NCBI GenBank assembly: GCA_030680795.1
Contig: JAUXUL010000002.1
Location: forward strand, 1 to 47,122
Direction: 5' to 3'
Origin: Anaerolineales bacterium
Lineage (GTDB): Bacteria; Chloroflexota; Anaerolineae; Anaerolineales; Villigracilaceae
DNA length: 47,122 nucleotides
Shown here: piece after piece, positions 17,073 to 42,885 of the stretch
How positions within the stretch are numbered: the first letter of the stretch is position 1
Layout: every line of letters starts with the position of its first letter
Position numbers and translations under genes: made by a program
Notes under the pieces: generated by a model
Databases searched by the model: none
Told to the model about the DNA's origin: nothing
The model's input: the letters and a program-made list of their open reading frames with translations, nothing else

Positions 17073-19868
17073 CTATTTCTCTTCTTCTCTTTCCCAAATC
17101 GTCTTGGCAATCAACTCCTGATCCACAGGAGTTCTATCGATCCGCACACCGACGGCGTTATAAATCGCATTCGTGATGGCGGGCGTGGTTGGGATACTGC
17201 ATATCTCCCCCACTCCCTTCGCGCCGTAGGGGCCTTCAGCGGTGGGATGCTCAACAATGATGGCGGTAATCTCTGGCGTGAGCATAATTCCAGGCACGCG
17301 ATAACGAGCCAGATGATCGGTGACCACGTTGCCATTATCCATGATGAATTCTTCGGTGAGGGCGTTGCCGAGGCCCATCATCACGCCGCCTTCGACTTGT
17401 CCCTGTAGGCCAAGCGGATTAACTGCCATGCCCACATCGTTCGCGGCGATGACTTTCAAAACGCGGACTTCGCCCGTCTGCGTATTGACCTCCACTTCGG
17501 CGGCTTGCACACCAAAGGAGAAGGCGAAGTGCATGTCACCGCCTGTACCGAGGGGACGCGTCTTGGGCGCTTCGTATTCGTAAAGCGCGCGCGGTTGTTG
17601 TCCCATGGCTTTCATTTCTTTGGCGACTTCCGCGTACGACATTGAATGTCCATTTGCATGGACAAATCCATTTTTATATTTAATTTGCTCAGGCTTGACA
17701 TCATACTTTTCAGCGAGCATGGCCGTGATTGCATTACGTAATGTCTTGGCCGCATAACGAGAAGCGTTACCTGTCACATAGGTTTGTCGTGAGGCAGTTG
17801 TGGGACCGCCATTGGGAGTTAAGTCTGTGTCCATGACAAGCACGCGGACTTTATCAGGCCCGACCGCCATTTCTTCGGCAACTATCATGCGCATGACAGA
17901 GACAAGTCCCTGCCCCATTTCGGCGGAGGAGCTTCGCACTTCAAACATGCCATCGTCATACAACTCAACTTCCGCGCCGGATATATCGGGTGCGCCGCCG
18001 CCGAGGCCTGTGTTCTTGTAAGCCGAGGCAAAGCCCCAGGCGCGGACCAAATTCGGTTGAGCAGAATCAATTGTCGGCTTGAAAGGATGCGGGTTTGACC
18101 TCCGCATTTCCGCGTCCACTTTATCAATACATTCAATCAAGCCGACTGACTCGCGCAATTCCTGTCCCGTATTGGTGATGCTTCCAACATGCAGGGCGTT
18201 CATGCGGCGCAGTTCAACGGGTTCGATGTTTAATTTTTCGGCAAGCATATCCATCATGGACTCAACCGCAAAGGCAGATTGCGTAACGCCAAAGCCACGG
18301 AACGCGCCCGCGGGGGGGTTATTGGTGTACATGGCGTAACAATCGGCCCGCACGTGCGGCACATCATACGGGCCAGCCGAATGCGTGGTGGCGCGGGTCA
18401 TCACCTTTTCGCCAAGCGAGGCATACGCGCCCGTATCACCATACAGTTCGGTATCCACCGCAACGAGGCGTCCATTCTTCATCGCGCCGATCTTGACGCG
18501 GATCTGCGTAGCGTGCCGTTTGGGATGCACAAGCAAACTTTCGTGACGATCAAATAATAATTTCACAGGGCGCTGAGTCACATTCGCCAGCATCGCAACA
18601 TGGATTTGTCCCATCACATCTTCCTTGCCACCGAAGCCGCCACCCATCAGTTGCCCGACGATGCGCACGCGCGACTCCTCCCAGCCCATCACACGCGCCA
18701 CCTGTGTCCGATCCTGATACGGGATTTGCGAGCCGACATAAATTTCCATGCGGCCATCGGGCTTCGGCACAGCGATGCTGCATTCAGGTTCAAGAAACGC
18801 ATGGTCGGTGATCGGCGTGTGAAAAGTATGTTCGAGAATGACATCCGCTTTCGCAAAGCCGACGTCCAAATCGCCCTTGCGGACTTTAATATGCTTGAGC
18901 AAATTCCCATTTGGATGAAGTTGCGGCTGGCCTGCCTGACGCGCTTGGACTGGATTTGTGATCACAGGCTGGAGGTCGAACTCCGCTTCGATCAACGCCG
19001 ACGCCTGCTCGGCGATCTGTTGGGTCTCCGCCGCGATGATCGCGAGCGTATCCCCCACGTATCTGACCCGTTCCCCGATACCGACAATGGTCGGCCAATC
19101 GTAAATGACCAGTCCATGATTGTGTTCGCCAGGGATGTCTTCGGCGGTTAAAACCGCCGTTACGCCAGACAATGCTTTTGCTTTTGAAATATCGAGCTTC
19201 TTTAATATGCCATGTGGAATCATCGCGCGGCGCGCCTTGGCATATAACATGCCATCGAACAAAAGGTCATCTGTATAAATTGCATCGCCAGTAACCTTCT
19301 CCACTGCGTCAGGTCTTAGGTGTGTGCGACCAACGACATCATGATTGTGAATTGAATCAGGGATATGCGGCTGTGGGATGGGTTTCCCTGTCCGCAAGGA
19401 ATGTGCGGCGGCGATAATAGCATTCTCAATTGTGGGATAACCCGCACAACGACAAAGCGTATCCTTCAACGCAAAGCGGATATCCTCCGAATTCGGATTC
19501 GGGTTGCGCTTGAGCAATGCATATGCAGTCATAATTTGTCCAGGGATACAGAATCCGCATTGGACTGCGCCATGTTCAACGAAGGCTTCTTGCAACGGAT
19601 GCAACTTCATCTCTTCATGGATGCGTTCAGCCAAACCTTCGATGGTCGTGATCTGCTTTCCACCCGCGCGCTCGGCGGGGTAGATGCACGAGACAATAGG
19701 CTCACCGTCCACAAGCACGGTACACGCGCCGCACTCCGCTTCTCCACAACCAATCTTTGTGCCAGTCAGGCGCAGTCTTTCGCGAAGGAGGGTGGAGAGA
19801 GTCTCTCCCGCAATGGGTTCGAGGGTATGTTTGATGCCGTTAACTGAAATAGAGATTTGATTATTCAT
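17073..19868 (-). CDS. Fused Fe-S / molybdopterin hydroxylase, xanthine dehydrogenase family (XdhD-like)
   Basis: The 931-residue protein fuses two [2Fe-2S] domains to the large Mo-cofactor part. The plant-type cluster uses Cys41, Cys46, Cys49 and Cys61; the second cluster uses Cys104, Cys107, Cys139 and Cys141. From about residue 185 the Mo subunit follows, with GGGFGGKED, AFRGFGVTQ, a GQG motif and the catalytic Glu in KGVGEICS near the C-terminus. The fused plan without FAD equals E. coli XdhD and the aldehyde oxidoreductase Mop. The FAD subunit gene directly upstream and the purine-gene context favour a purine hydroxylase (hypoxanthine/xanthine) over an aldehyde oxidase. Whether the Mo site carries selenium cannot be read from sequence. 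Confidence 0.88.
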   Translation of the reverse strand: MNNQISISVNGIKHTLEPIAGETLSTLLRERLRLTGTKIGCGEAECGACTVLVDGEPIVSCIYPAERAGGKQITTIEGLAERIHEEMKLHPLQEAFVEHGAVQCGFCIPGQIMTAYALLKRNPNPNSEDIRFALKDTLCRCAGYPTIENAIIAAAHSLRTGKPIPQPHIPDSIHNHDVVGRTHLRPDAVEKVTGDAIYTDDLLFDGMLYAKARRAMIPHGILKKLDISKAKALSGVTAVLTAEDIPGEHNHGLVIYDWPTIVGIGERVRYVGDTLAIIAAETQQIAEQASALIEAEFDLQPVITNPVQARQAGQPQLHPNGNLLKHIKVRKGDLDVGFAKADVILEHTFHTPITDHAFLEPECSIAVPKPDGRMEIYVGSQIPYQDRTQVARVMGWEESRVRIVGQLMGGGFGGKEDVMGQIHVAMLANVTQRPVKLLFDRHESLLVHPKRHATQIRVKIGAMKNGRLVAVDTELYGDTGAYASLGEKVMTRATTHSAGPYDVPHVRADCYAMYTNNPPAGAFRGFGVTQSAFAVESMMDMLAEKLNIEPVELRRMNALHVGSITNTGQELRESVGLIECIDKVDAEMRRSNPHPFKPTIDSAQPNLVRAWGFASAYKNTGLGGGAPDISGAEVELYDDGMFEVRSSSAEMGQGLVSVMRMIVAEEMAVGPDKVRVLVMDTDLTPNGGPTTASRQTYVTGNASRYAAKTLRNAITAMLAEKYDVKPEQIKYKNGFVHANGHSMSYAEVAKEMKAMGQQPRALYEYEAPKTRPLGTGGDMHFAFSFGVQAAEVEVNTQTGEVRVLKVIAANDVGMAVNPLGLQGQVEGGVMMGLGNALTEEFIMDNGNVVTDHLARYRVPGIMLTPEITAIIVEHPTAEGPYGAKGVGEICSIPTTPAITNAIYNAVGVRIDRTPVDQELIAKTIWEREEEK

Positions 19869-19953: not shown

Positions 19954-20826
19954 TTATTTTGCTCTTTGCCACGCGGTTTCGAGCGTATCTTTGAACAGCC
20001 CTTCGACCAAATGGCGGCGATAATCCGCGCTGGCGCGGCGGGGACTAGAGCGGAATCCGATTTGGGCAAGCACGGCGTCCAAACCAGCATTGATTGTTTC
20101 TTCATTCATGGGTTTGCCTGTCATTAATTTTTCAGCTTCTGTTGCGCGCCATGGAGTGGGTGCGCCTGGACCAACGGCGATGCGGATTTGTTTAACAGTA
20201 TCGTCCGCGCTTTCGAGCCAGATGGCGAGGTTGATGATCGGCAATGCCACTCCCTGCGGGCGCATAATGCGTTTGAAGCAGGAGGCTTGGCCGAGTTTGG
20301 AAAGTGGCAAGTAGAAACCAACGAGTAATTCCTCGCCATGTTTCAGGGAAGATTTTCCGGGGCCGAGGAATAATTCATTGAGGGGGACTCGGCGAATGCC
20401 ATATAAGCCTGCAATCTCGGCTTCAGCGTTTAGGGCGAGCAATGCTATCGTTCCGTCTGCGGCGGGGAGCGCGTGAGCGACATTGCCTCCGAGAGTGGCC
20501 ACGTTACGGACTTGCGGGCCGGCGATCAACTCACAGGCTTCGGTCAAGGCTTGGGCATGTGCACCCGCTAAACGGTCAGAAACGATGCGGCTGACTGGGA
20601 CGGAGGCACCGACGAAGAGTTCATCCCCTCTTAATTCGAGCACGGTCATCTCTGCTATGGAAGTCACATCCACGAGGGTGTGGATGGGCGAATGCCGGCC
20701 TTGTGCGAGGTCGAGCATTAAATCAGTACCGCCCGCGATGGGAAGCGCGGGTCCGCGTGATTCGGCAAAAGCCTTTAATGCTTGTGACAGGGTGGCAGGG
20801 CGAATAAATTCTTGCCATAGGTTCAT
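19954..20826 (-). CDS. FAD-binding subunit of molybdenum hydroxylase (XdhB/YgfM-like)
   Basis: This 290-residue protein has the vanillyl-alcohol-oxidase-type FAD fold of CoxM/XdhB proteins: AGGTDLMLDL near the start, GPQVRNVATLGGNVAHALPAAD in the middle for the isoalloxazine, and a C-terminal CO-dehydrogenase flavoprotein domain. It would pass electrons from the Fe-S clusters of the adjacent 931-residue subunit to NAD+ or another acceptor. The frame extends upstream to 20901, but the ATG at 20826 begins at the conserved LWQEFIRPATLSQAL and has GAGG nine bases before it. The gap to the hydroxylase gene is 85 bases. Confidence 0.88.
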   Translation of the reverse strand: MNLWQEFIRPATLSQALKAFAESRGPALPIAGGTDLMLDLAQGRHSPIHTLVDVTSIAEMTVLELRGDELFVGASVPVSRIVSDRLAGAHAQALTEACELIAGPQVRNVATLGGNVAHALPAADGTIALLALNAEAEIAGLYGIRRVPLNELFLGPGKSSLKHGEELLVGFYLPLSKLGQASCFKRIMRPQGVALPIINLAIWLESADDTVKQIRIAVGPGAPTPWRATEAEKLMTGKPMNEETINAGLDAVLAQIGFRSSPRRASADYRRHLVEGLFKDTLETAWQRAK

Positions 20827-20946
20827 AGGTGGTGTCCTCTTTATTGCTAGACGGCGGCACTTTTCGATGGGTTTGCCCAACGCCGCTGATGCACTCCGCA
20901 AACAGCGACCACCGAACCGATGGAATAAGATTGTACTACTTTAAGG

Positions 20947-21375
20947 TCAGGCAGGGGTTTTTTCTTCGGGATGAACACCTGCCATTAACAAGCCAAGCCT
21001 TTCGCGCGTTGCATCCTGACGGGCAAGAATATCCATGATCCTGCCTTCGTAAATCACAGCAACGCGATCTGAAAGGGCAAAGATTTCATCAAGGTCTTCA
21101 GAGATGAGCATGACGGCCGCGCCTCTTTTTCGCTGAGCGAGCAATTGTTCGCGGACATATTCAGTCGCGCGGATGTCAAGCCCGCGAGTTGGTTGCGCGG
21201 CAATGATGGCGCGCGGATTCCTGGAAATCTCGCGCGCAAGAACTATTTTTTGTATATTGCCGCCAGAGAGATTTTTTGCAAACGATTTGTGCGAAGCTAT
21301 TGCCGCATTCTTTTATGTGGTACACAACGGTCGATCAGCTTTTTTGAAATGGATTGTTTTGCTTGGTCCAGACGA
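20947..21375 (-). pseudogene. Remnant of an ABC sugar/nucleoside ATPase, C-terminal part
   Basis: On the minus strand the last 120 or so codons of a BMP-type ABC ATPase survive: KNLSGGNIQKIVLAREISR, then QPTRGLDI, then MLISEDLDEIFALSDRVAV, ending at 20947. Upstream of KSFAKNLSGG a stop (21313-21315) closes the frame. Another frame keeps a few plausible residues (QSISKKLIDR) up to about 21375, consistent with a frameshift. About three quarters of a normal 510-residue protein is missing, including both Walker A sites. It abuts the end of an intact permease gene and precedes the FAD-subunit gene. Confidence 0.8.
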
Positions 21376-21389
21376 GGCTGATTTCCATT

Positions 21390-22334
21390 CTATTCACGAA
21401 CATAAGGGGTTCCAAGGGCGATAGGCGCGCCGGCGCGCCGACGGCCAAGAAAGACAGCGATCACGGTCATGATATATGGCATTGCCAGGAACAATTGGAA
21501 AGGCAGCTTGATGCCCAGCGCCTGGACTTGCATTTGCAACGCATCGATAAACCCAAAGAAGAGGGCGGCCCACAGGATCCTGCCCGGCTTCCAATCGCCA
21601 AAGATAACTATGGCAATTGCCAGCCAGCCGCGCCCCGCAGTAATATCGGCGACAAATACGCCCGCTGAGCCAAGGGTAATCACGCTGCCAGCCAACCCGG
21701 CCATCAGACCCCCGAAAAGCACAGCCGATACGCGATACAGCGTGATACTGATCCCTTTCATGTCCACCGCGCGTGGGTTTTCTCCGATGGTACGCAAGAT
21801 CAAACCGCTTTTTGTCCGATACAGGTAAAACCAGATGATGAGAACCATGAAAAGGGCTATGTACGCCATTGCATGATGCGAGAAGAGCAACTCGCCCAAG
21901 ACAGGGATCTGGGATAAATAAGGAATTTTCAAGGCGGAAAACGGCACCAAATTTGGCGTGCCTTGCGAGCCGACATCGGGAAAGACCGTACGGTAAATGA
22001 AAAAAGTTAATCCTGCCGCGAAGATATTTACAGTCAGGCTGCTCACTGTTTGGTCAACCTGAAAAACGATCGCCAGCAACGCGAAGATGACGCTGATCAA
22101 CATCCCAGCGAGGGCGGCGGAAACAACGCCGAGCCAGAGGGATTCACTGAAATACCCCACTAAAAAGCCGGCCAGAGCCCCGGTGAGCATCATACCTTCC
22201 ACGCTTAGGTTCAATACACCAGAACGCTCCACAATCAGTTCTCCCAAAGCAGCAAATAAAACAATCGTTCCCATGCGCACGGCGCTGGCAAAGATACTGA
22301 TGAGCATGTCCGCTTGTAAAAATTCATTGAACAT
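21390..22334 (-). CDS. ABC transporter permease, BMP/nucleoside type, second permease (system A)
   Basis: This is a polytopic inner-membrane permease of about 314 residues, BPD_transp_2 family. It has a SGVLNLSVEGMMLTGALAGF motif at about 35-55, LRTIGENPRAVDMKGI in the cytoplasmic loop, and GRGWLAIAIVIFGDWKPGRI near the end. It forms a heterodimeric channel with the permease encoded upstream; the two genes overlap by 11 bases. The start at 22334 is chosen for GGAG eight bases upstream and for alignment with its paralogue at 27975-28943; the longer frame lies inside the neighbouring gene. The expected substrate class is nucleosides or bases. Confidence 0.9.
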   Translation of the reverse strand: MFNEFLQADMLISIFASAVRMGTIVLFAALGELIVERSGVLNLSVEGMMLTGALAGFLVGYFSESLWLGVVSAALAGMLISVIFALLAIVFQVDQTVSSLTVNIFAAGLTFFIYRTVFPDVGSQGTPNLVPFSALKIPYLSQIPVLGELLFSHHAMAYIALFMVLIIWFYLYRTKSGLILRTIGENPRAVDMKGISITLYRVSAVLFGGLMAGLAGSVITLGSAGVFVADITAGRGWLAIAIVIFGDWKPGRILWAALFFGFIDALQMQVQALGIKLPFQLFLAMPYIMTVIAVFLGRRRAGAPIALGTPYVRE

Positions 22335-23430
22335 CTTCGACTCTCCTGATCCGGTATTTAAACACCTCTTCCCATACCAGCAACATGATGATGACAAATC
22401 CCATGATGGCAGTGATCAATTCGCGAGGAACATTGGAGTGAATGATCATGGCTGAGGAGCCGTTATGCAACGCCCCAAAGAAAATTGCCGCTGGCGCTAC
22501 GCCGAGAGGGTGCAAACGTCCCAGCAATGCGATGAGAATGCCAGTGAAACCGAAACTTACCGAGAACCCATATACCAAGCGATGATGAACGCCCAGCAAT
22601 TCGATTCCACCAGCCAGGCCGGAAATGGCCCCACTGAGAACCATCACGATCAAGCTGATCCTTTGAATATTGATGCCTTTGAAGCGCGCCGCAGTGGGAT
22701 TACTGCCTGTAGCGCGGATCTTATATCCCAGTTTCATGTGCCAGAGCAGGTAATAGATCAAAGCCGCCAGCAACAGCGCAATGAGGAAGCCGCTATGCAA
22801 CCGCGTCTCAAAAAGGAGTGGCAGGTTGGTGGTCTCCGGAAAGCGTATGGTGTTGTAATAGTGGCTGCCCGCTTCCTGCCAAATTCCGCCCAGCAGGTAA
22901 GTGGTCAAGTACAGGGTAATATAATTGAGCATTACCGTAACGATGATCTCATTGACGTTGTACCTGGATTTCAGAACACCGGGGATGGCGCCAGCCAACG
23001 CACCGAATATGGCGGATACAACCAGAAGCAACGGAACAAAAATCCACGCTGGCAAGCCTGTGTCTTTGAGCAATAATACAGCCCAGGTAACCCCAAGCGC
23101 GCCGGTGTAGAGTTGCCCTTCCTGTCCAATGTTCCAGACTTTCGCCCGAAATGCCACCACTGTCGCCAGTCCGGTGATGAAGATCGGTGTCGCTTTTATC
23201 AACGTATCAATCACAGCATTTTTTGTGCCAAACGAGCCTTTGACAATCGCCCACAGCACAGTCCCGGCATCCGCGCCGATCAAGGAAATGACCCAAAAAG
23301 TGATTCCAAACGAACAGATCAGAGCTACCAATATCGAGAGTAGGCTGGCAAAGATGCCGCTTTCCTTCCGTTTTTCGAGGCGGTAATGAAATTTTGGAAT
23401 AACGGATCGAGTGGATTTAGCTGTGCTCAT
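22324..23430 (-). CDS. ABC transporter permease, BMP/nucleoside type, first permease (system A)
   Basis: The 368-residue membrane protein has a cytoplasmic basic N-terminus, about nine hydrophobic segments and the family motifs KATPIFITGLATVVAFRA, VWNIGQEGQLYTGA and KSRYNVNEIIVTVMLNYI. The start at 23430 follows GGAGG; the frame above it overlaps the ATPase gene and lacks family character. Start and stop overlap its neighbours (14 and 11 bases), so the ATPase and both permeases are translated as one block. It pairs with the 21390-22334 permease. Confidence 0.9.
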   Translation of the reverse strand: MSTAKSTRSVIPKFHYRLEKRKESGIFASLLSILVALICSFGITFWVISLIGADAGTVLWAIVKGSFGTKNAVIDTLIKATPIFITGLATVVAFRAKVWNIGQEGQLYTGALGVTWAVLLLKDTGLPAWIFVPLLLVVSAIFGALAGAIPGVLKSRYNVNEIIVTVMLNYITLYLTTYLLGGIWQEAGSHYYNTIRFPETTNLPLLFETRLHSGFLIALLLAALIYYLLWHMKLGYKIRATGSNPTAARFKGINIQRISLIVMVLSGAISGLAGGIELLGVHHRLVYGFSVSFGFTGILIALLGRLHPLGVAPAAIFFGALHNGSSAMIIHSNVPRELITAIMGFVIIMLLVWEEVFKYRIRRVEDVQ

Positions 23431-24979
23431 GTTCCTCCAAACCGGCCATATAGAGGCCGATTGTTTCCCTGTCAACTTCGTGAACATCAAACACCCCCAT
23501 GATCCTTCCGTTGTAAATCACGGCAATACGATCAGAGATGTTAAAGATTTCGTCCAGGTCTTCGGATATCATCAGTATGCCGGCTCCATTGCGCAACAAT
23601 TCAAGAAACCGGCTGTATACATAGTAAGTTGCGCCGATATCCAATCCCCTGGAAGGCGAACTGGCAACCATGACTTTGATTGGTTTGGAGACTTCCCGCG
23701 CCAAAATCACTTTTTGCAGGTTGCCGCCTGACAATTGCCCGACCGGTTGAAGCGGACCTGTGGTCTTAATCTCGAATTGTTGGATTGCTTGACTGGCAAA
23801 AGATTTGATCGCCTTCCAGTTCAGGCTGACGCCCCTGGAATAAGAAGGGCTATCCTGTAAACCAAGTATCAAATTTTCCTGGACAGTGAATTCTTCAATC
23901 AGACCCTGCCGCAGACGATCCTGCGGAACGCTTGCCAAACCCAGGCTGGCAATTGCTTCCGGATTGTGCGTTGACTCTTTTAGGATTTCCACCCCCGCGA
24001 AACGGATCTTGCCCTTTTCCGCTTTGCGAACCCCGACCAGGGTCTCAAACAGTTCCGCCTGCCCATTTCCGCTCACCCCTGCAAGCCCCAAAATCTCACC
24101 CTGCCGAACATTCAAGGAAACATCTTGCAATGCAAGAGAGCCGTTATCCCGCAACACCGTCAAGCCTTTAATCTCCAGCGCTGGGGGACCAAAATCAATT
24201 TTTTCCTTGTGAACATTGAAATCGAAATCGCGCCCTACAAGCAGGCGGGCGAGGGAAGCCTTGGTGTTGCCTCGTGTGGGAACCGTATCAACGACTTTTC
24301 CCTTGCGGAGGATGGTCACTTCATTCGAGATATTCATCACCTCATGCAGTTTATGAGTAATCAGAATCACCGAGATGCCATCTATAACCATTTTCCCAAT
24401 AATGGAAAACAGGCTTTGCACTTCCTGGGGAGTAAGAACCGCGGTTGGCTCATCCAGCAGGAGCAAATCAACGCTCACATACAGCGCTTTGAGAATTTCG
24501 ACCCATTGTTGCTGACCCACTGAGAGCTGCGCCACTGGCGTATCCAAATCAAGAACAATTCCATACTGTTCGCAAAGGGCCTGGATTTTCTTCTTCTCTG
24601 CCTGAAGATTAAGCAACGCCCCGGTTGATTCCTCGCCCACAATAATATTTTCCACGGCATTCATTGGATCAGCAAGCACAAAATGCTGGTGCACCATTCC
24701 GATTCCCATGCGGATGGCATCGCGCGGGGAAGAAAAGGCGACTTCCCGCCCTTTGAAATAGATCCTGCCTGCGTCGGGCCTGGAGGCCCCATAAATACAC
24801 TTCGCCAGCGTGGATTTACCAGCGCCATTTTCACCCAGTAAGCAATGAACATGTCCCTGTTTGACTGAAAAAGACACCTGATCGTTTGCCACCAACGAGC
24901 CAAAGGTTTTAGTCAGGTGTTCCACCGCTAGGATCGGCGGCGCCTCATTTCGCGGAGTAACCACTACATTATCCGTCAT
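23417..24979 (-). CDS. ABC transporter ATPase, tandem-domain BMP/nucleoside type (system A)
   Basis: This is a tandem ATPase of about 520 residues. The first half has a full Walker A (GENGAGKST, about 49-57), signature LSVGQQQ and Walker B LLLDEPTAVL. The second half has a degenerate P-loop region (GVSGNGQAELFE), signature LSGGNLQK and SSPSRGLDIG in place of a normal Walker B/D-loop. Such asymmetry is standard for sugar and nucleoside importers. The ATG at 24979 has GGAGG at good spacing, better than a TTG two codons upstream. It energises the two permeases just downstream and works with the lipoprotein encoded at 25057-26154. Confidence 0.9.
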   Translation of the reverse strand: MTDNVVVTPRNEAPPILAVEHLTKTFGSLVANDQVSFSVKQGHVHCLLGENGAGKSTLAKCIYGASRPDAGRIYFKGREVAFSSPRDAIRMGIGMVHQHFVLADPMNAVENIIVGEESTGALLNLQAEKKKIQALCEQYGIVLDLDTPVAQLSVGQQQWVEILKALYVSVDLLLLDEPTAVLTPQEVQSLFSIIGKMVIDGISVILITHKLHEVMNISNEVTILRKGKVVDTVPTRGNTKASLARLLVGRDFDFNVHKEKIDFGPPALEIKGLTVLRDNGSLALQDVSLNVRQGEILGLAGVSGNGQAELFETLVGVRKAEKGKIRFAGVEILKESTHNPEAIASLGLASVPQDRLRQGLIEEFTVQENLILGLQDSPSYSRGVSLNWKAIKSFASQAIQQFEIKTTGPLQPVGQLSGGNLQKVILAREVSKPIKVMVASSPSRGLDIGATYYVYSRFLELLRNGAGILMISEDLDEIFNISDRIAVIYNGRIMGVFDVHEVDRETIGLYMAGLEEHEHS

Positions 24980-25056
24980 GTGCAAACGCCTCCATCACGC
25001 AAGGTTTTAGAAAGTGGGCGGAGATGATTTTCCCCGCCCACTGGAACGAAACGAAC

Positions 25057-26154
25057 TTACTCGATAGTAACTTCTTCCAAATTCAAGGGGATGACCAGTG
25101 TGCCATCCAAAATTTGCTTCTTGACTTCCTCGAACTTGGCAATCACTTCTGGCGGCAGTGTTTGTTCAAAGCCATATAAAGGCGCCAAACCTGAACCACC
25201 GTCTTTCATCAGGAAGTAAATCGGCTTGTCAGCGGGAGCATTATAGGCTGTGCCATTGACCACGTGATCGTACCAGGCTTCGATGACAAACTTCACATCA
25301 GGATCCCAGAATACGAGAGGGCTGGTGATGATCGTGTCAGGCGCCATCTCGTGGATATCCGACTGGTTGCCAAAGGCCAGAACGCCCTTATCGCGAGCCG
25401 CCTCGAAGGCGCCGTAACGCTCGGAGAAGATCAAATCCGCGCCCGCTGCAATCTGCGCTAGGGCGGTTTCCTTGGCTTTCACCGGATCCCACCAGGATTC
25501 GATGTAGGAACTCTTGAACTGCACTTCTGGATTCACCGATTTGGCGCCTTCCATGAAGGCGTTGAGTTGGTGATTCACACTGGCATAGGGGAAGCCGGCA
25601 ACCATGCCCAGAATATTGCTCTTGGTCATCATGCCCGCGATGACGCCGCTCAGGTAGGACGGTTCATGGGCGTACATCTGGACAAAATATGTGTTGCCGC
25701 CTACTGGAAAGTAGTTCGAGGCGGAAACCCCGAAGATCTGTTCCGGGTACTGTTGGCGCAGGTTGTCCACTGGATCCGTACCAGCAGAAGCATCGTGCAG
25801 CCAGATGATATCGAATTCGCCGGTGTCAATAACATCCCGAACGAATTTTTCGTAATCATCAATCGGCACTTTTTCGAACCATTTGTACTCGATTGCCAGA
25901 CCCTGAGGGGAATCTTGCTTCACCCGTTCAACTGCCTGAACCATGGCCTGGGACCATGGTTCATCCAATGGGCCGGTGGCGAAGAAGGCAATTTTGACCG
26001 TGGTCGGCGCGACGCTGGCGGGCGCTTCAGTTACCGCAGATTGGGCAGGCGCTTCTGTCGCCGTCGGTTCCGCCGGAGCTGGCTGGCACGCCCCTAGAAA
26101 CAGCCCTAGTACAACGAATATCGTCATGGCAGTTAAAAATCGTTTCATTTTCAT
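25057..26154 (-). CDS. BMP family substrate-binding lipoprotein (system A)
   Basis: The protein of about 365 residues has a lipoprotein signal with lipobox LGAC (Cys23), an Ala/Pro/Thr linker and a BMP/PnrA-like periplasmic-binding fold: VKIAFFATGPLDEPWSQAM near residue 50, then WLHDASAGTDPVDNL, and AHEPSYLSGVIAGMMTKSN. Members bind nucleosides, bases or related compounds outside the membrane. The start at 26154 is preferred because AAGGAG lies nine bases upstream of it, inside the slightly longer frame that begins at 26178. It is followed by the ATPase and two permeases and preceded by a deaminase gene, suggesting import of a deaminase substrate. Confidence 0.9.
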   Translation of the reverse strand: MKMKRFLTAMTIFVVLGLFLGACQPAPAEPTATEAPAQSAVTEAPASVAPTTVKIAFFATGPLDEPWSQAMVQAVERVKQDSPQGLAIEYKWFEKVPIDDYEKFVRDVIDTGEFDIIWLHDASAGTDPVDNLRQQYPEQIFGVSASNYFPVGGNTYFVQMYAHEPSYLSGVIAGMMTKSNILGMVAGFPYASVNHQLNAFMEGAKSVNPEVQFKSSYIESWWDPVKAKETALAQIAAGADLIFSERYGAFEAARDKGVLAFGNQSDIHEMAPDTIITSPLVFWDPDVKFVIEAWYDHVVNGTAYNAPADKPIYFLMKDGGSGLAPLYGFEQTLPPEVIAKFEEVKKQILDGTLVIPLNLEEVTIE

Positions 26155-26243
26155 TTTTTTGATCTCCTTAGTTTTCATAATTGGTTACTGATGACTCGTG
26201 AACGGGATTTAGGCTAACAGGATTCAGAAGCGGTACCTCCTTT

Positions 26244-27521
26244 CTACTGTGGGACAATTTCGGAAAACGTCTGGCGAACTTCAGTTTGGACGAGAACCTT
26301 GCCAGCTCGCATTACGAGCGTAGGTGAGGGATGGAGCCGGAGGGCGTCCAGCTCGGATTGAACGGGCAAGAGCAGGAGATGAGCCGGGTTGCCCACCTTG
26401 AGGCCGTAATCCTGGATGCCAAACGACCTGGCAGCGCTGTACCCGGGCATCTCAAATGCCTTGCGGATTAAATGCGGTGTGGTCAGATAACCAGCATGGG
26501 CCGCAAAGAGGGCTGCATCCAATGGATTCATACTGCCAAAGGGATAGAACATATTATTCATATCGTCATGACCGCAGGCAACATTGACACCGGCCTTTAT
26601 CAGCCGATCAAGAGGTGGAACACCGCGCCGAACCGGGGGTTGATCTTCGCGTCCCTGGAGAAAAAGGTTGGTCAGCGGGTTGGTAACGATGGTTATCTGG
26701 GCGGCAATAACCTTGGGAATGATCCTCTGGAATGTTGCCTCATCCCAGGCAGCCATGGCGCAGCAGTGGCTGGCGCTGACTCTACCTTGATAATTTTCAG
26801 CAATGGTCTTATCTGCCAGCAGTTCCAATGATCTCCAGTAGGGGTCATCAATCTCATCGACATGCATATCGATGCTGGTATTATATTTCTTGGCGATGTT
26901 GAAGATAATTTCGATCTGTTTTGCAGCGTCATCTAGGTCTTTTTCGATGTGAGGAATGCCTCCAACCAGGTCGGCTCCGTTTTCCATCGCCTGATACATC
27001 AAGTCAACGGTTTCTGAGCTGCGCGCCATGCCAAGTTGGGGAAAGGCAATGATGCCAATATCCACAATCCCACTGAATTTTCGTTTCACTGCTACAACGC
27101 CCTGCAACATCTTCAGTTTGGAGTCCGGGTCGATATCCACATGGCCACGAAACCATAACACGCCATTTGAAAGTGCTTGACGCACTGCCTGACTGGCTTT
27201 GTCGATCAGGTCGTCTAGTTGGCGATCCTTTTTGACGCGCGCATATATATCAATGGCTTCGAACAGCGTACCGCTTTGATTAATGAGGTCTGCCGTTTGA
27301 TCAGATGGCCAGAGCAGAGGGTTATCGAGGTGAAAATGAGGTTCAAAGAAGGGCGGTATAGCCAGCTGTCCTCGTGCTTGGATCGCCACGTGCCCCGGGC
27401 TGAGTTCGTCCGTGCTTATTTCAACAATCTTATCCCCCGAGATACCGATGTCCACAAATCCAGCGGGATCATCTACCGCCAATGCTCTGTCCAACAAAGC
27501 CCGATGTATGGTTACATCCAT
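26244..27521 (-). CDS. codA: Cytosine deaminase-like amidohydrolase (CodA family)
   Basis: The 425-residue enzyme (E. coli CodA has 427) keeps the metal and catalytic residues of the CodA family: His62 and His64 (EPHFHLD), His220 and Glu223 (MHVDE), His252 (SHCCAM) and the Asp of GHDDMNN near 319. CodA hydrolyses cytosine to uracil and ammonia; E. coli CodA also deaminates isoguanine to xanthine, which would fit this purine locus. A strong GGGAGA precedes the ATG. It is directly upstream of the BMP transporter and is the first intact gene after the operator at 27769. Its exact substrate (cytosine, isoguanine or another base) needs an assay. Confidence 0.85.
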   Translation of the reverse strand: MDVTIHRALLDRALAVDDPAGFVDIGISGDKIVEISTDELSPGHVAIQARGQLAIPPFFEPHFHLDNPLLWPSDQTADLINQSGTLFEAIDIYARVKKDRQLDDLIDKASQAVRQALSNGVLWFRGHVDIDPDSKLKMLQGVVAVKRKFSGIVDIGIIAFPQLGMARSSETVDLMYQAMENGADLVGGIPHIEKDLDDAAKQIEIIFNIAKKYNTSIDMHVDEIDDPYWRSLELLADKTIAENYQGRVSASHCCAMAAWDEATFQRIIPKVIAAQITIVTNPLTNLFLQGREDQPPVRRGVPPLDRLIKAGVNVACGHDDMNNMFYPFGSMNPLDAALFAAHAGYLTTPHLIRKAFEMPGYSAARSFGIQDYGLKVGNPAHLLLLPVQSELDALRLHPSPTLVMRAGKVLVQTEVRQTFSEIVPQ

Positions 27522-27583
27522 TTTTTGTCTCCCAATTGATAATACCGTCTACCATCAATGAAAATGCAGACAACTTATTCTTT

Positions 27584-27718
27584 TCATTGCAAACTTGAAT
27601 TGACCTTCAAGAAAAACAACATGACTGCGCCGATAAGCAAAGCTGCGATTGCCGCAAAGACGGGCAGAAATCCATCGATCAGGCGAGATATCCATTCGCT
27701 ATGAAGAAATTTTTTCAT
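27584..27718 (-). pseudogene. 44-codon N-terminal remnant of an ABC permease
   Basis: The frame encodes MKKFLHSEWISRLIDGF, then a single hydrophobic helix (LPVFAAIAALLIGAVMLFFL) and stops after KVNSSLQ. This is how BMP-type ABC permeases begin: a short cytoplasmic head, first helix, then a V-N-P/S motif. No further permease sequence follows in any frame. It stands directly behind the promoter and operator of the codA operon, so it may still be translated as a leader peptide. A genuine small membrane protein is less likely. Confidence 0.6.
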
Positions 27719-27745
27719 GGGCAGCCACTTGTCTCCTGTTGTAAC

Positions 27746-27779
27746 AGTATACTGAAAGCGCCCAAAAGTTGTCAGACAA
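27746..27779 (-). promoter_or_regulatory. Promoter with overlapping operator, codA/transporter/xdh operon
   Basis: On the minus strand a -35 CTGACA (27770-27775), an 18-base spacer and a -10 TATACT (27746-27751) are visible. The palindrome TTGTCTGACAA (27769-27779) covers the -35, as expected for a repressor site. The same 11-mer occurs at 44341-44351. Confidence 0.6.
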
Positions 27780-27974
27780 TTTGTAATAGGAATAGCATGA
27801 TATTTATCCAGAATCTCGAGCCGATTTACGAATGCCTATCCACCCGACAGGGCTGAGGTGAGCAGTACTATGACAATAAGGGTATTAAACATGAATACAG
27901 ACGTGCACTACAATAACCAGTGTTTTGTGCGTCAGGAAGAAGGCTGAATAAATCTTTAGTAATCAAGAACATAA
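27780..27974. other. Gap between transporter system B and the codA operon
   Basis: Together with the promoter and permease remnant this belongs to the 452-base gap 27522-27974. I see no open frame with family character and no clear terminator for the upstream permease gene. Confidence 0.5.
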
Positions 27975-28943
27975 CTATAGGCCACGTTCGCCGCGCACAT
28001 AAGGATTGCCCAACGCGGCAGGTGCGCCGATGCGTTTCCGCAGGGCTTCACGCGAGCCGATCACCAGGACAACAACAGTGAAAAGATAGGGCAACATTTG
28101 CAGAAAGAACCCAAGATATGGATTGTAATAAAAAGGGTTGGCAAAGCCGAACAAAACGAGCGGCCCTTGAATATCCAGAATGAGGCGGCGGAGAGCGCCG
28201 AAAGCGTACGCGCCGATTGCCGCGCGGAATGGATCCCATTGAGCGAAGATGACCAAACCGATGGCGATCCAACCCTGCCCGCCAGTGGTTAGCTCGCTGA
28301 ACCATCCTGGTGAAACTGCCAGGCTGATCGTCGCGCCCGCCAACCCAGCCATCATCCCACCCACAAAAACATAAAAATAACGCATACGAAAAACGTTGAT
28401 ACCCAACGCGTCTGCGGCGGATGGATATTCACCTACCGCGCGCAAATGCAAACCCGGACGCGTACGATTTATGTAATACCATGACAAGGGAACAAGTAGA
28501 TAGCCAACGTAAACGAGTACGCTTTGATTGGTGAAAAAGATTTTTCCAATGATCGGGATTAGGGTAAGCAGTGGGATCGAAAAATTTGGCAGGAGCGAAA
28601 CTGTCCCAGCCTTGCTCAAGCCCTCGCCTAACACGAGGCTGATGCCTGCTCCCAAAAAAGTGAGCGCAAGCCCGCTGACAACTTGATCTGCCTGCAAAGT
28701 GATCACAATGAAAGCATGGATCTGGCTGATGAGTCCCGCAAAAATCATAGCCACCAAAACACCGAGCCACGGATTGCCAGTTGCGATGGTAGTGCTAAAT
28801 GCGCTCATTGCGCCAATCAGCATCATACCTTCAACACCTAGGTTCAGAACACCGGATCGTTCAGCAAATAGCTCACCAATGGTTGCGAACAGCAATACCG
28901 TTCCGCTTGCAATCCCTGCCTGTAAAATAATCGTATAGTCCAT
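27975..28943 (-). CDS. ABC transporter permease, BMP/nucleoside type, second permease (system B)
   Basis: The 322-residue polytopic permease is a paralogue of the 21390-22334 gene: FAERSGVLNLGVEGMMLIGAMSAFS at about 28-52, LRAVGEYPSAADALGI in the cytoplasmic loop, and GQGWIAIGLVIFAQWDPFRA. It begins two bases after the stop of the first permease gene. It forms the channel of the second BMP-type importer with the 28946-30070 product. Differences throughout indicate an old duplication or separate acquisition rather than a recent copy. Confidence 0.9.
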   Translation of the reverse strand: MDYTIILQAGIASGTVLLFATIGELFAERSGVLNLGVEGMMLIGAMSAFSTTIATGNPWLGVLVAMIFAGLISQIHAFIVITLQADQVVSGLALTFLGAGISLVLGEGLSKAGTVSLLPNFSIPLLTLIPIIGKIFFTNQSVLVYVGYLLVPLSWYYINRTRPGLHLRAVGEYPSAADALGINVFRMRYFYVFVGGMMAGLAGATISLAVSPGWFSELTTGGQGWIAIGLVIFAQWDPFRAAIGAYAFGALRRLILDIQGPLVLFGFANPFYYNPYLGFFLQMLPYLFTVVVLVIGSREALRKRIGAPAALGNPYVRGERGL

Positions 28944-28945
28944 GA

Positions 28946-30070
28946 TTATTCCTCCACGCGTTCAATGACGACGCGATAACGAAGCAGGAAGTCGCTGGCA
29001 ATAAGGCAGACCAGAATGATTCCCTGTATCATCTTGGGCACACCAGAGGGTTGAATTTCACGGCCGGCAAGGATCAAAGCCCCAAATAATATGGAAACGA
29101 ATATGATCGCCAGTGGATTCAACTTTGCCAACCAGGCAACGATGATGCCAGTAAAGCCATACCCGGCGGCAACTGGGGCAGTTTGCAAACGATGGACAAC
29201 ACCCCCAACTTCAGACATACCGCCCAAGCCCGCCAGTGCGCCGGAGAGCATCATCACCCAAATCGTGTTTCGCGTAATATTAATACCTGCATATTGCGCC
29301 GCATTCGGGTTATCACCGATCAAACGAATCTCATAGCCCCAGCGGCTGCGAAAGATAATGAACCATAAAATGATCGCGGCCACGATGCCAATGACCAGAC
29401 CCAGATGTGTGGTAAGTCCGCGAAAAATCGGGAAAGCCTTGGCATAATCCGACAAACGCGGCAACCACGCGCCGTCGGGGAACTTGGGCGACATTTGGAA
29501 ACCACCTTCCGTCCATACGCCAAAGATCCAAAAGTTTACCCATGCCACTGCCACATAATTCAACATCAATGTGCTGATGATCTCATTCACATTAAACTTT
29601 GCTTTTAGATAGCCCGGAATGAATCCCCAGATAGCCCCCGCGGCCATGCCCGCTATCATCATTACCGGAATAAATATCCAGCGCGAGGTCTCAGCGGGCA
29701 GCACAGGCGCAAGCACAATGGCGCTCGCGCCGAATGCGCCCATAATGAACTGCCCCTCTGCGCCGATATTCCACAACTTCATACGGAACGCAACCGAACA
29801 AGCCAGAGCAGCCAATATGATCGGCGTTGCTTTAACGATCGTATCTGAAAGCACGCCAATATCGCCGAATGAAGCCTTTGCAATATGTAGATAGGAACGG
29901 ATCGGATCACCACCAGCGAATGAAATTAAGACGCCTCCCAAGATCAAGGCGACAATGATCGCGCCAAACGATACCGCGGCGGGGTACCATGCAGGCGGTT
30001 CGCTCAAACGCGGTTCAATTCGAAAACGGAAGGGTGCGCGTCTCTTATTTAAAGTTGTCGGCTCAGTCAT
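28946..30070 (-). CDS. ABC transporter permease, BMP/nucleoside type, first permease (system B)
   Basis: The 374-residue membrane protein has about nine hydrophobic segments and the family motifs VKATPIILAALACSVAFRMK, LWNIGAEGQFIMGAFGA, AKFNVNEIISTLMLNY and GDNPNAAQYAGI. It corresponds to the system A gene at 22324-23430. The start overlaps the end of the ATPase gene by eight bases. The partner permease follows after two bases. Substrate class as for system A: nucleosides or nucleobases by family. Confidence 0.9.
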   Translation of the reverse strand: MTEPTTLNKRRAPFRFRIEPRLSEPPAWYPAAVSFGAIIVALILGGVLISFAGGDPIRSYLHIAKASFGDIGVLSDTIVKATPIILAALACSVAFRMKLWNIGAEGQFIMGAFGASAIVLAPVLPAETSRWIFIPVMMIAGMAAGAIWGFIPGYLKAKFNVNEIISTLMLNYVAVAWVNFWIFGVWTEGGFQMSPKFPDGAWLPRLSDYAKAFPIFRGLTTHLGLVIGIVAAIILWFIIFRSRWGYEIRLIGDNPNAAQYAGINITRNTIWVMMLSGALAGLGGMSEVGGVVHRLQTAPVAAGYGFTGIIVAWLAKLNPLAIIFVSILFGALILAGREIQPSGVPKMIQGIILVCLIASDFLLRYRVVIERVEE

Positions 30071-31688
30071 GTGCGGCGACTCCTTCTTTTTGGATTTGAT
30101 CGAGCGGAGTGCCCGTCATCATTTGACCAATCGTATCCACCAAACCCTTCGACAGGCTCAGGGCGGCGCCTTCATCTGGTTCATCGTCCCCAATCATTAC
30201 CTCCCCCATGATTTTTCCTTCATAGATCACGTAAACGCGGTCACAGAGTGAAAGTAATTCTTCCAACTCTTCAGATACAAGCAGTACCGCCGCGCCAGCC
30301 TCCCGTTGAGCCAGCAGCAAACGGTGGACTCCTTCGATCGCGCCAACATCCAGCCCACGGGTCGGTTGAACCGCAACCATAAAAGCGGGCAATCCTGAAA
30401 TCTCGCGCGCCAAAATCACACGTTGAAGATTTCCTCCGGAAAGCAATCGAACGGGGGTGGAAACTGTGGGAACGATAATGTCGTAAGCCAGCTTGAGTTC
30501 ATTGGCATGTTTCGTAGCTGCCTTCATATCCAACAAACCATTTTTTGAGATCGGCGGCTTGCGGAAATTCTTCATAATGACATTGTCCGTCACACTAAGG
30601 TTAGGCGCGCTGCCTACATGGGTGCGATCTTCAGGGACATAAGCCATGCCATGTTGAATGCCGAATAATGTATTGCGATTGCTAATTTTATCCCCATTGA
30701 GCAGAACTTGTCCCTGTGCGCATCTTCGCATGCCTGAAATAACTTGCGAAAGTTCGCTTTGCCCATTGCCCGCCACGCCTGCTACGCCAACGATTTCACC
30801 CGCGCGCACGTTTAAGGAGATACCGCGCAACGCGGGCAATCCTTTATCACTTTCAGCATGTACATCAGTAACTTCCAGCACAACATCTTGCGGCCTGCCG
30901 GGTTTTTTATCAAGCGCAAAAATTACATCACGCCCCACCATCAAGCGGGCTAACTCCTGACGAGAAACTCCTTTTGAAGGGACGCCTGAAGCAGTAGCAA
31001 TACCGCGCCGCAACACACTGACACGGTCTGCAATGACACTGACTTCCTGAAGCTTGTGGCTGATAAAAATGACCGATTTCCCCTGGGCGATCATGGCTCG
31101 CAAAGTTACAAACAAACCTTCGATCTCTTGTGGCGCAAGCACTGCAGTCGGCTCGTCCATGATAAGCACATCAACACCACGATAAAGCATTTTTAGAATT
31201 TCAACACGTTGTTGTTCCCCCACCGATAATTGCCAGATCTTTGCACGCGGATCCACTTTTAAGCCGAAGCGTTCACCCAATTCAGCGATTTTGGTATTGT
31301 AATCAGGTAAACGCATAATGAAGCGCGGATCATCAAGCCCAAGCAAAATATTTTCAGTGACTGTTTGTGATGGCACCAGCATAAAATGCTGATGCACCAT
31401 GCCAATACCGGCCTTGATCGCATCACGCGGCGAGGAGAAGGCCTTCGGCTCGCCCTTAACCAAAATCGTGCCGGCTTCCTGGCGGTATAAGCCAGCCAGC
31501 ACATTCATTAGAGTACTTTTGCCAGCGCCATTCTCTCCAAGCAAACCATGGATCTCGCCATGCAATAATTCAAAATCAACATGGTCATTTGCCAGCACGC
31601 CGGGAAAGCGCTTGACAATTCCGCGCATTTCAACAACGAGCGGCGCTTGCGGAGGTGAACTGGGCATTGAGGAGGTTTGATTGATCAC
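30063..31688 (-). CDS. ABC transporter ATPase, tandem-domain BMP/nucleoside type (system B)
   Basis: This is a tandem ATPase of about 541 residues with Walker A GENGAGKST, signature LSVGEQQRV and Walker B LIMDEPTAVL in the first half, and LSGGNLQRVILARE and QPTRGLDVG in the second. A GTG at 31688 is the preferred start because AGGAG lies seven bases upstream; the ATG at 31667 has no ribosome site and the longer frame to 31787 runs into untranslated sequence. Near the C-terminus the peptide AALSLSKGL interrupts the usual end of the protein. It is encoded by a REP-type repeat (30145-30164), apparently inserted in frame. The catalytic parts are untouched, so the protein should work. Confidence 0.88.
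   Translation of the reverse strand: MINQTSSMPSSPPQAPLVVEMRGIVKRFPGVLANDHVDFELLHGEIHGLLGENGAGKSTLMNVLAGLYRQEAGTILVKGEPKAFSSPRDAIKAGIGMVHQHFMLVPSQTVTENILLGLDDPRFIMRLPDYNTKIAELGERFGLKVDPRAKIWQLSVGEQQRVEILKMLYRGVDVLIMDEPTAVLAPQEIEGLFVTLRAMIAQGKSVIFISHKLQEVSVIADRVSVLRRGIATASGVPSKGVSRQELARLMVGRDVIFALDKKPGRPQDVVLEVTDVHAESDKGLPALRGISLNVRAGEIVGVAGVAGNGQSELSQVISGMRRCAQGQVLLNGDKISNRNTLFGIQHGMAYVPEDRTHVGSAPNLSVTDNVIMKNFRKPPISKNGLLDMKAATKHANELKLAYDIIVPTVSTPVRLLSGGNLQRVILAREISGLPAFMVAVQPTRGLDVGAIEGVHRLLLAQREAGAAVLLVSEELEELLSLCDRVYVIYEGKIMGEVMIGDDEPDEGAALSLSKGLVDTIGQMMTGTPLDQIQKEGVAAHD
30145..30164. repeat. REP-type repeat inside the system B ATPase gene
   Basis: The 20-base sequence beginning CCCTTCGACAGG and ending CTCAGGGC is a common bacterial intergenic REP core. 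Here it lies in frame within the last 40 codons of the ATPase gene. Confidence 0.7.
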
Positions 31689-31843
31689 CGGATTACTCCT
31701 GCAAAAAACTCTGGAGTCAGGCTGCTTGCCGCCTGACATGTCCATCAGCACCCACAGGGCAAGTGAACTGACGGACTCCAGAATCATTATTTACAAAGAG
31801 GGCCAGAACCCTGAGAGTCCTGGCCCATTTATCAGTTAGACGG

Positions 31844-33112: not shown

Positions 33113-33190
33113 TTTTCTTCTCCTTATAAAATATGTGTTTTGCGACGAAACTAGCAAGATCTAATTGTTCTTTCGACCTCCTTTCAAGCT

Positions 33191-36425: not shown

Positions 36426-36434
36426 ATAGTCTCC

Positions 36435-36498
36435 TAGTCTTATAGTTAGGTAGTCTTAAAGTCAGGTAGTCTTATAGTCAGGTAGTCTTATAGTCGGG
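36435..36498. repeat. Four 16-bp direct repeats
   Basis: Units TAGTCTTATAGTTAGG, with one to three changes, start at 36435, 36451, 36467 and 36483. Inverted copies of the core (GACTACCTGAC) follow near 36548, so the gap between the carbamate kinase and YgeW-like genes can fold back on itself. Confidence 0.8.
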
Positions 36499-36561
36499 TA
36501 GTCTGCTAAACATTCGACCGCCTGACTACTCGACTATGTAACTATTCGACTACCTGACCAA

Positions 36562-37551: not shown

Positions 37552-37571
37552 TGTTTCTCCTTGTTTAATTT

Positions 37572-37627
37572 GTAAACAAGTAAACAGGTACACACGTATA
37601 CAGGTTCACACGTGTTTACTTGTTTAC
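37572..37627. repeat. 15-bp inverted repeat between carbamoyltransferase genes
   Basis: GTAAACAAGTAAACA (37572-37586) and its exact complement (37613-37627) enclose a 26-base centre containing further short repeats. The tail up to 37670 repeats the GACTACTCGACTA type core seen near 36530. Confidence 0.8.
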
Positions 37628-37667
37628 CTGTCTACTTGACTACTCGACTAACCGACTGCCAAACTAC

Positions 37668-38621: not shown

Positions 38622-38710
38622 GACGAACCTCCTTAATAGTGATGAAGATGGTGGATGATAGTGGACTCCTGTAATTCTAAAGTGTGATTTTCGGCCTGAC
38701 TTATTCCGTT

Positions 38711-38737
38711 AAAAAATATGAGAAGGGGCAACCCTTC
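38711..38737 (-). terminator. Intrinsic terminator after the ygeY-like gene
   Basis: On the minus strand GAAGGG-TTGC-CCCTTC (38722-38737) is followed by a T-rich run (complement of 38711-38716), four bases after the stop codon at 38742. It separates the ade-gntR-ygeY unit from the carbamoyltransferase genes. Confidence 0.75.
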
Positions 38738-38741
38738 AAAC

Positions 38742-39965: not shown

Positions 39966-40019
39966 AAATACACCTCAAGAAATTAATATGGATGATTGCA
40001 ATGCACATTCAGTGTAAAA

Positions 40020-40736: not shown

Positions 40737-40742
40737 AGGTCC

Positions 40743-42533: not shown

Positions 42534-42578
42534 AAGCACTCCGTTGAACGTTTGAACGTTGACAAGTTTATAGTTCGG

Positions 42579-42884: not shown

Positions 42885-42885
42885 G

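Follow-up and report, generated by a model that had tools for sequence, protein, structure and literature searches.

The codA cassette and the two gene stumps

The contig JAUXUL010000002.1 of an Anaerolineales bacterium (Chloroflexota, family Villigracilaceae; GenBank assembly GCA_030680795.1), which is 47,122 bp long and is here called the window, was found to carry a complete ATP-binding cassette (ABC) importer cassette headed by codA between the broken ends of an older importer cassette. Very probably the locus arose by gene displacement in situ, the old importer cassette having been replaced in place by a foreign codA cassette. All parts of the locus described here lie on the minus strand (-), and the order of transcription on that strand is used throughout.

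The first gene of the new cassette, codA (26244..27521), is predicted to encode a cytosine-deaminase-like amidohydrolase of the Amidohydro_3 family (Pfam). It matched NCBIfam PRK07572 at 1.5e-97 with 327 bits, below the cut-off of 438, and the product is called only cytosine-deaminase-like, the cut-off of the curated cytosine deaminase family not being reached. Next come a BMP/PnrA-type substrate-binding protein (25057..26178; Pfam Bmp, 4.8e-31), an ABC ATPase with two ABC_tran stretches (23417..24985) and two BPD_transp_2 permeases (22324..23490 and 21390..22397, given as listed open reading frames (ORFs); the true start of the first is probably further in and that of the second probably at 22334). 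A first-pass annotation, made from the sequence alone, had placed codA and a complete BMP-type system between two stumps, and Pfam bears this out: the Bmp protein, the double-domain ATPase and both permeases required for an importer of this type are present in the order BMP-ATPase-permease-permease.

On the upstream side the cassette is preceded by the N-terminal stump of a permease, a 44-codon ORF at 27584..27718 directly behind the operator region, as had been predicted. The first 40 codons (27599-27718) share 90% protein identity with the N-terminus of permease 1 (oP1) of the related genome G001, which occupies the same place in its operon, and the remaining compared permeases matched weakly (best E 0.06). 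The DNA homology to G001 ends at 27599, such that the last four codons of the stump are new sequence. On the downstream side lies the C-terminal stump of an ATPase (20947..21281), with homology from about 21281 to 20950; it comprises 109 codons, or 21% of a 520-aa ATPase, and the native stop codon. Its protein identity is 93.6% to the ATPase of the G001 cassette (oATP), against 52%, 53% and 39% to the three other compared ATPases. The first-pass annotation had correctly taken this stump for an ATPase C-terminus but began it at 21375, about 95 bp too far upstream; the segment 21282-21375 is not ATPase-like and includes an in-frame stop codon. By these alignments both stumps derive from one old cassette.

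The edges of the exchanged block are sharp. Upstream, a gap-free alignment of 217 bp (27815-27599, including 97 bp before the stump and 120 bp of it) shows 87.6% identity to G001 and 86.2% to G052, and downstream the DNA is 94.4% identical to G001 over 502 bp, from the stump at 21281 into the gene for the flavin adenine dinucleotide (FAD)-binding subunit. Identity to G001 drops from 87–96% to none at 27599 and at 21281. On the ATPase side the alignments of G052 and G043 reach some 15 bp deeper into the block, and this edge is thus known to within about 15 bp. The left junction DNA (27522..27598) had no homology to relatives and the right (21282..21389) almost none, two relatives aligning over these first 15 bp or so; inside the block only short, weak matches to ATPases of relatives were found. 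Repeats at the edges were looked for in 20800-28100 and rejected, since besides the ATPase similarity only short, chance-like repeats occur there.

Neither stump contains a frameshift. The permease stump is open from start codon to stop codon and the ATPase stump is in frame to its native stop. Polarised synonymous/nonsynonymous counts were 3/3 for the permease stump and 4/1 for the intact G001 copy, and 5/3 and 5/4, respectively, for the ATPase. Stump decay gave no signal and was rejected as a clock; with decay absent, the swap looks recent. The same open frames favour the alternative that the stumps were kept for a function, the permease stump, as first ORF behind the promoter region, serving as a leader peptide or translation-coupled start and the ATPase stump, which runs in frame to its stop, as a spacer. 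However, no signal of selection could be separated from recency and the stumps do not recur in any of the 36 loci of relatives described below, and retention for function appears improbable.

The intact operon in related genomes

The protein of the FAD-binding subunit gene matched 147 of the 151 related genomes searched and the permease stump matched 52 of 151. From the best matches 36 loci were chosen, one per genome, 34 from the same genus and two (G083 and G085) from the same family; matches left aside include G042, G045 and most of the other genera of the family. The loci were labelled with window and G001 proteins. Many of the stump matches were N-termini of full-length permeases about 5 kb 5' of the FAD subunit match (e.g. 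G001, G052, G043 and G083). Indeed, 30 of the 36 loci carry the old cassette, permease 1-permease 2-BMP-ATPase, before the FAD subunit gene and the xanthine dehydrogenase (XDH) gene, together termed FAD-XDH; 26 of the 30 show all four cassette genes and the FAD subunit gene in order, and the remaining four are truncated where the contig or the fetched stretch ends. The codA arrangement was found in 0 of the 36 loci, and likewise the stumps in 0 of the 36.

The flanks are syntenic on both sides. Upstream, gene 33249, the first in transcription order, is followed by another BMP-type cassette; downstream are the retained XdhB-like FAD-binding subunit (19954..20823; Pfam FAD_binding_5 and CO_deh_flav_C; 76–80% identity to G001) and the retained xanthine-dehydrogenase-type Mo hydroxylase with fused 2Fe-2S domains (17073..19868; Pfam MoCoBD_1/2, Fer2 and Fer2_2; 88% to G001). 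The next gene after XDH is threonine-synthase-like, and thrC stands beyond XDH in four loci, all those that show this stretch. Along the FAD subunit gene the DNA identity to G001 is about 90% in the 5' half and 64–78% at the 3' end, a contrast that may reflect recombination within the gene.

The proposal that the stumps are the outer ends of one earlier operon was therefore correct in its core, both aligning to the ends of one cassette subfamily that is intact, with the same neighbours, in relatives; stumps of different subfamilies, or relatives sharing the new arrangement with no older operon, were not encountered. The operon differs from the one envisaged, permease...ATPase-xdh, in that the old cassette carries its own binding protein between the permeases and the ATPase. 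FAD-XDH does lie behind the old cassette and was kept, as supposed, but need not be a mere tail of it, as it possesses its own conserved RNA leader and is still found in genomes that lack the cassette.

In the rpoB tree the genome of the window is sister to G001 (support 100/99), which carries the intact cassette, and the swap is therefore most simply assigned to the lineage of the window. The XDH tree gave the same sister pair (SH-aLRT, the Shimodaira–Hasegawa-like approximate likelihood-ratio test, 96), and the FAD subunit tree did not resolve the position next to G001. The rpoB tree was midpoint-rooted, G017 was omitted for its short match, and 30 of its 38 rows bear an architecture label.

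The old cassette is absent in six of the 36 loci (G022, G053, G027, G023, G031 and G008), in which permease 2 of the upstream cassette is followed by the FAD subunit gene with 56–96 nt between the matches; a 28% BMP match of G027 lies outside the slot and was not counted as old cassette. Such absence is frequent, at least six presence changes being needed on the rpoB tree when the window is scored as absent, and this would agree with a variant of the displacement in which the middle of the old cassette was deleted first and the codA cassette entered the scar later. However, the 56–96 nt left in the six genomes are too short to hold a stump, and in the window both stumps remain with no decay, so that any gap between loss and gain was short. 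Deletion before entry is thus the less likely course, though not a far-fetched one.

Origin, control and context of the exchanged cassette

The BMP protein of the new block had no match above 31% (E<=1e-30) in the 56 other genomes of the genus; over all 57 its matches were itself and then, at 28–31%, proteins such as the BMP of the old cassettes. In a sample of 396 genomes of the class, with five candidates scored per genome, the best other match was 40%. Within the genus, codA was matched in three genomes at 32–34% (E<=1e-20), and in the 151 relatives at up to 36% over full length, with a partial match in G122 of 49% over 183 residues; this partial match adjoins a gene for a GntR-type regulator.

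Close kin of the cassette came from one pattern scan of a collection of species genomes. The uncultured Chloroflexi LaPlata_bin-0303 (L102) has codA-BMP-ATPase up to the contig end, with 68%, 77% and 73% identity, respectively. Chloroflexi RBG_16_57_11 (L103) has a divergent codA followed by BMP-ATPase-P1-P2 (P1 and P2 being the two permeases), and a genome labelled Rhodospirillales (L104) has BMP-ATPase-P1-P2 and a further ORF. The BMP identities are 65% to L103 and 70% to L104, those of the ATPase 68–73% over L102-L104, and to L103 and L104 permease 1 is 64–65% and permease 2 is 70–78% identical. The block is thus a unit that occurs elsewhere as a unit. These cassettes are the nearest kin found (BMP 65–77%), and none can be taken as a direct donor. 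Carriage of the cassette on a plasmid was considered and dropped, as nothing close was found; plasmid matches were all below 60% identity, and 37–39% in the rows listed.

These identities also bear on the possibility that no replacement took place and that cassettes resident at the locus gave rise to the present one by rearrangement or duplication. All the cassettes are BMP-type paralogues, and a 91-bp segment of the ATPase stump shares 75% DNA identity with the ATPase gene of the new cassette. However, the present proteins are 28–48% identical to the old ones and 29–43% to those of the upstream cassette, against 90–94% between the stumps and the old cassette, and the gene orders differ, BMP-ATPase-P1-P2 as compared with P1-P2-BMP-ATPase. 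Rearrangement of resident cassettes was rejected on these protein identities, and we give it next to no credence.

The promoter had been predicted to survive the exchange, and the 97-bp region 5' of old permease 1 (27719..27815), which holds the operator, was indeed retained, aligned to relatives together with the stump at 87.6% to G001. The operator, TTGTCTGACAA, lies at 27769-27779, and a TATACT in this region may be the -10 element of the promoter. Allowing up to two mismatches, the operator has 11 copies in the window, not above chance (mean 13). Of the 28 relatives with permease 1, six have it within one mismatch, and one of the six has an exact copy. The only other exact copy in the window, at 44341-44351, stands about 50 bp before an 8-oxoguanine deaminase gene (42886-44289) and suggests a shared regulator, perhaps the UTRA-domain GntR protein encoded at 40020-40736. 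A local GntR gene is placed directly 5' of permease 1 in 18 of the 36 loci, including L064 (5995-6726; Pfam GntR and UTRA, tested on this one), and a site of the TTGTCTGACAA type within one mismatch was found there in 0 of the 18. GntR gene and operator type thus seem to alternate.

The left junction includes, at 27561-27577, a TTGTCTG-CATTTT that resembles, with one base missing, the operator TTGTCTGACAT located 31 nt 5' of codA in L102; the comparison is TAAATTGTCTGACATTTT against TAAGTTGTCTG-CATTTT. No such site within one mismatch was present in L103 or L104. If the junction segment were a remnant, the incoming cassette would already have been under the same kind of operator, which is suggestive only.

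Directly upstream of the operator region the window carries a second complete BMP system (27975..33157, BMP-ATPase-P1-P2), which had escaped the first-pass annotation. This upstream slot is occupied by the same type, here called A, in 13 of the 30 loci with the old cassette, by a type B in 14, and was not seen in three. The sister genome G001 has type B (L063, 11340-16503), its BMP being 31% identical to that of type A, yet despite this difference the window and G001 share 87% identity over 33244-32967, which covers the upstream region, signal peptide and linker. Among the 30 labelled genomes the rpoB tree demands at least five changes between A and B; both this count and the one of at least six for whether the old cassette is present come from parsimony on a one-gene tree in which several forks are unresolved. 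The window and G001 therefore differ at both cassette slots, and in both slots the part kept is the 5' end, that is, the upstream region and first codons. The locus may act as a docking site, the upstream cassette having been swapped repeatedly among relatives and the old cassette being absent from six of them.

Several points weigh against the displacement and are best considered together. The assembly is fragmented into 54 contigs, of which the window is one whole contig, and no second genome sharing the junctions turned up, such that the junctions rest on one assembly. The related cassettes of L102-L104 are themselves on contigs of metagenome-assembled genomes. The 4-mer composition of the block is unremarkable (0.157, as compared with a mean of 0.166 for 56 other windows), and being uninformative it leaves the foreignness of the block to be argued from gene distribution. 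Neither stump alone matched a Pfam family at E 0.001, and their identification consequently depends on relatives. Their substitutions resemble those of the intact G001 copies and give no independent sign of lost function. The ancestral state is a matter of parsimony, the rpoB tree being midpoint-rooted and of one gene. In 22 of the 28 relatives with permease 1 no operator within one mismatch was found, and the operator-remnant reading of the left junction is weak, five of 1000 shuffles scoring as high.

The first of these points, with composition that does not discriminate, would also suit an assembly chimera, in which contigs of two organisms had been joined and the codA cassette does not belong to this operon. 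However, a chimera would require two false joins, made independently, that happened to set a whole cassette, correctly oriented, precisely between both ends of a single operon whose flanks are syntenic on either side, and it is very improbable. Given two stumps of common origin, sharp edges, intact copies in relatives and the absence of the block from those relatives, the swap is, within the limits of a single assembly, established by the sequences compared. It adds a clear new example to a known process: the flanks are orthologous and in order, the interior is non-orthologous and the resident state is ancestral by parsimony on the one-gene, midpoint-rooted tree.

The course of the displacement may be pictured as follows. 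In the ancestor, a promoter carrying the operator TTGTCTGACAA would have preceded permease 1-permease 2-BMP-ATPase-(RNA)-FAD-XDH. After the split from G001 the segment between permease codon 41 and roughly ATPase codon 411 would have been removed, and the foreign codA-BMP-ATPase-permease-permease would have come to stand in its place in the same orientation, by one double crossover or by an insertion and a deletion. The old promoter, whose sequence is retained, has presumably taken over transcription of the new cassette, for which the 44-codon stump would be a leader. The cell would thereby have gained a codA-linked importer, perhaps for cytosine or another nucleobase, under the old control, with FAD-XDH kept.

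Further from the locus, a tyrosine recombinase gene (8593-9492; Pfam Phage_integrase) lies more than 11 kb from the swap, and no link to it was seen. Purine-degradation genes occupy 35469-44289, including those for a carbamate kinase, two carbamoyltransferase-family proteins, a YgeY-family hydrolase, the GntR protein, an adenine deaminase and the 8-oxoguanine deaminase.

The RNA leader of FAD-XDH and comparison with known systems

A conserved element of about 70 nt is located between the ATPase stop codon and the FAD subunit gene in 33 of 35 FAD loci, the window (20852..20922) included. It is missing in G036 and G041, which are also the two with a complete cassette and FAD subunit gene but no XDH match in the fetched stretch, and is present in all six genomes devoid of the old cassette. 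FAD-XDH can outlast swaps because this leader of its own adjoins the swapped stretch downstream. A DNA search of the genome of the window gave one true copy, the other six matches having E >=0.566.

Twenty-eight of the 33 elements were freely aligned (alignment A2), leaving out G026, G032, G047 and G005 for long inserts and G056, whose core is identical to that of G021. The alignment fits a three-way junction with 90.1% of cells paired, and RNAalifold recovered the same junction unaided. The covariation score was 0.146, as compared with 0.082 in shuffled alignments (none of 500 reached it) and a maximum of 0.072 with the structure slid. Seven pairs changed on both sides, six in helix P2 and one in P3, a number reached by five of 500 shuffles; the count of further pair types was reached by 65 of 500 and is less telling. 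The outer P2 pairs are often unpaired (77.9% for the helix) and P1 hardly varies. Taken singly, the sequences did not fold with unusual stability: z was between -1.1 and -2.0 for three cores, of which that of L114 folds otherwise, and -0.15 for the window sequence including the start region. The case for a structure thus rests on conservation and covariation.

A model built from the 28 copies matched 20 of 400 genomes of the phylum at E<=0.01. A second, from 43 copies aligned by fitting to the structure of the first, reached E<=0.001 in 175 of the 400 genomes sampled from the order and in 70 of 130 genera, these E-values being rough. Weak matches outside the order in G574 and G620 (E about 0.007-0.008, GC content 0.73-0.74) were treated as chance. 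From the 175 genomes with a match, 20 sites in 19 genomes were picked by hand for diversity to inspect their context; the 39 sites used for pairing were likewise hand-picked. At the 20 sites the next genes on the strand of the element were FAD-XDH in 13, SsnA and/or an operon of F420 genes in five and an XDH paralogue in two. Three further sites, L205, L206 and L207, precede SsnA; the L205 protein passes the SsnA cut-offs and those of L206 and L207 are 54–62% identical to it, and at two of the three sites F420 reductase, CofE, CofD, CofC and a luciferase-family gene follow.

With the start region of the FAD subunit gene added, the predicted fold of the window changes, the 5' strand of the element pairing with the ACCACC directly before the start codon. 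Over these 39 sites, the longest Watson-Crick helix that the 5' strand could form with the 60 nt downstream of the element averaged 6.67 bp, against 5.49 bp for re-dealt sites (maximum of 300 runs 6.18; re-dealing ignores relatedness) and 4.46 bp for shuffled downstream DNA (maximum of 100 runs 4.85). It was 5 bp or less at nine of the 39 sites, three of them with 3–4 bp (L207, L246 and L256). At many sites the complement ends right before the ATG and co-varies with the 5' strand (GGCGG with CCGCC or CGCC, GGTGG with CCACC). With both P1 and the start region as candidate partners, the 5' strand is arranged as in a translational switch, and judging from conservation and covariation the leader may switch translation between a closed aptamer and a helix hiding the start codon. 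By eye, a hairpin and T-run resembling an intrinsic terminator was noted 3' of the RNA in L205 (after 2097), L206 (after 2091) and L256 (after 503), and the copies before SsnA and XDH paralogues may also act on transcription.

Rfam 15 gave no match at gathering score in the window. In a permissive scan the model M23 overlapped the element at chance level (18.3 bits, gathering 41.2, E 0.95), and a permissive scan of four loci had nothing at the element. Among open-licence papers, as far as their available text goes, no RNA motif answering to its description was found. The element has the look of a riboswitch class not described before, and we present it as a candidate. We are inclined, with some reserve, to take the locus as a dock for exchangeable nucleobase or nucleoside importers, with fixed promoter ends and FAD-XDH held by its own RNA switch, and the RNA as an undescribed riboswitch class of the order that would sense a purine-degradation compound (xanthine, urate or similar) and control the start codon of Mo-hydroxylase and SsnA-pathway genes. 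That the ligand is a purine-degradation compound is a guess.

For the reductive uric acid pathway, gene clusters that include an F420-dependent luciferase-family enzyme have been described in Chloroflexota (PMC12507026). The SsnA operons with F420 and luciferase-family genes that the element precedes are of the kind reported there, and the window shares with those clusters a YgeY-family hydrolase, carbamoyltransferase-family genes, a carbamate kinase and adenine and 8-oxoguanine deaminases. The genes that accompany the element (SsnA, F420 genes, XDH and purine deaminases) are those of the pathway. The word riboswitch does not occur in the main text of that paper. The NMT1 xanthine/urate riboswitch is described as a two-stem motif of alpha-, beta- and gamma-Proteobacteria (PMC7373994) and is linked to purine oxidation genes, as the element is here. 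The present element, in contrast, is apparently a three-way junction that occurs mainly in the order of the window and has no Rfam match at gathering.

The new cassette has all component families of the BMP/PnrA-type nucleoside ABC importers (Bmp, ABC_tran and BPD_transp_2), and differs from these in being joined to a putative cytosine-deaminase-like amidohydrolase and in standing before FAD-XDH. The locus suggests how import specificity can be swapped while the control and the catabolic enzyme stay; the RNA leader marks the fixed part. It is the more novel part of the locus as compared with the swap, and would be a testable new riboswitch class of purine pathways.

Operon displacement is usually inferred from conflicting trees. 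A 2003 study of operons reportedly described gene displacement in situ, by which foreign genes replace residents within an operon and flanks and control are kept, and the same appears to be the case here. The present example differs in that five genes, forming a complete cassette of another subfamily with a different gene order, were exchanged, and in that the old genes left broken ends on either side, which allowed the edges to be placed closely. Together, the broken ends, the intact operon of the sister genome and the related cassettes make the edges, the timing and the regulatory inheritance of such a displacement directly readable.

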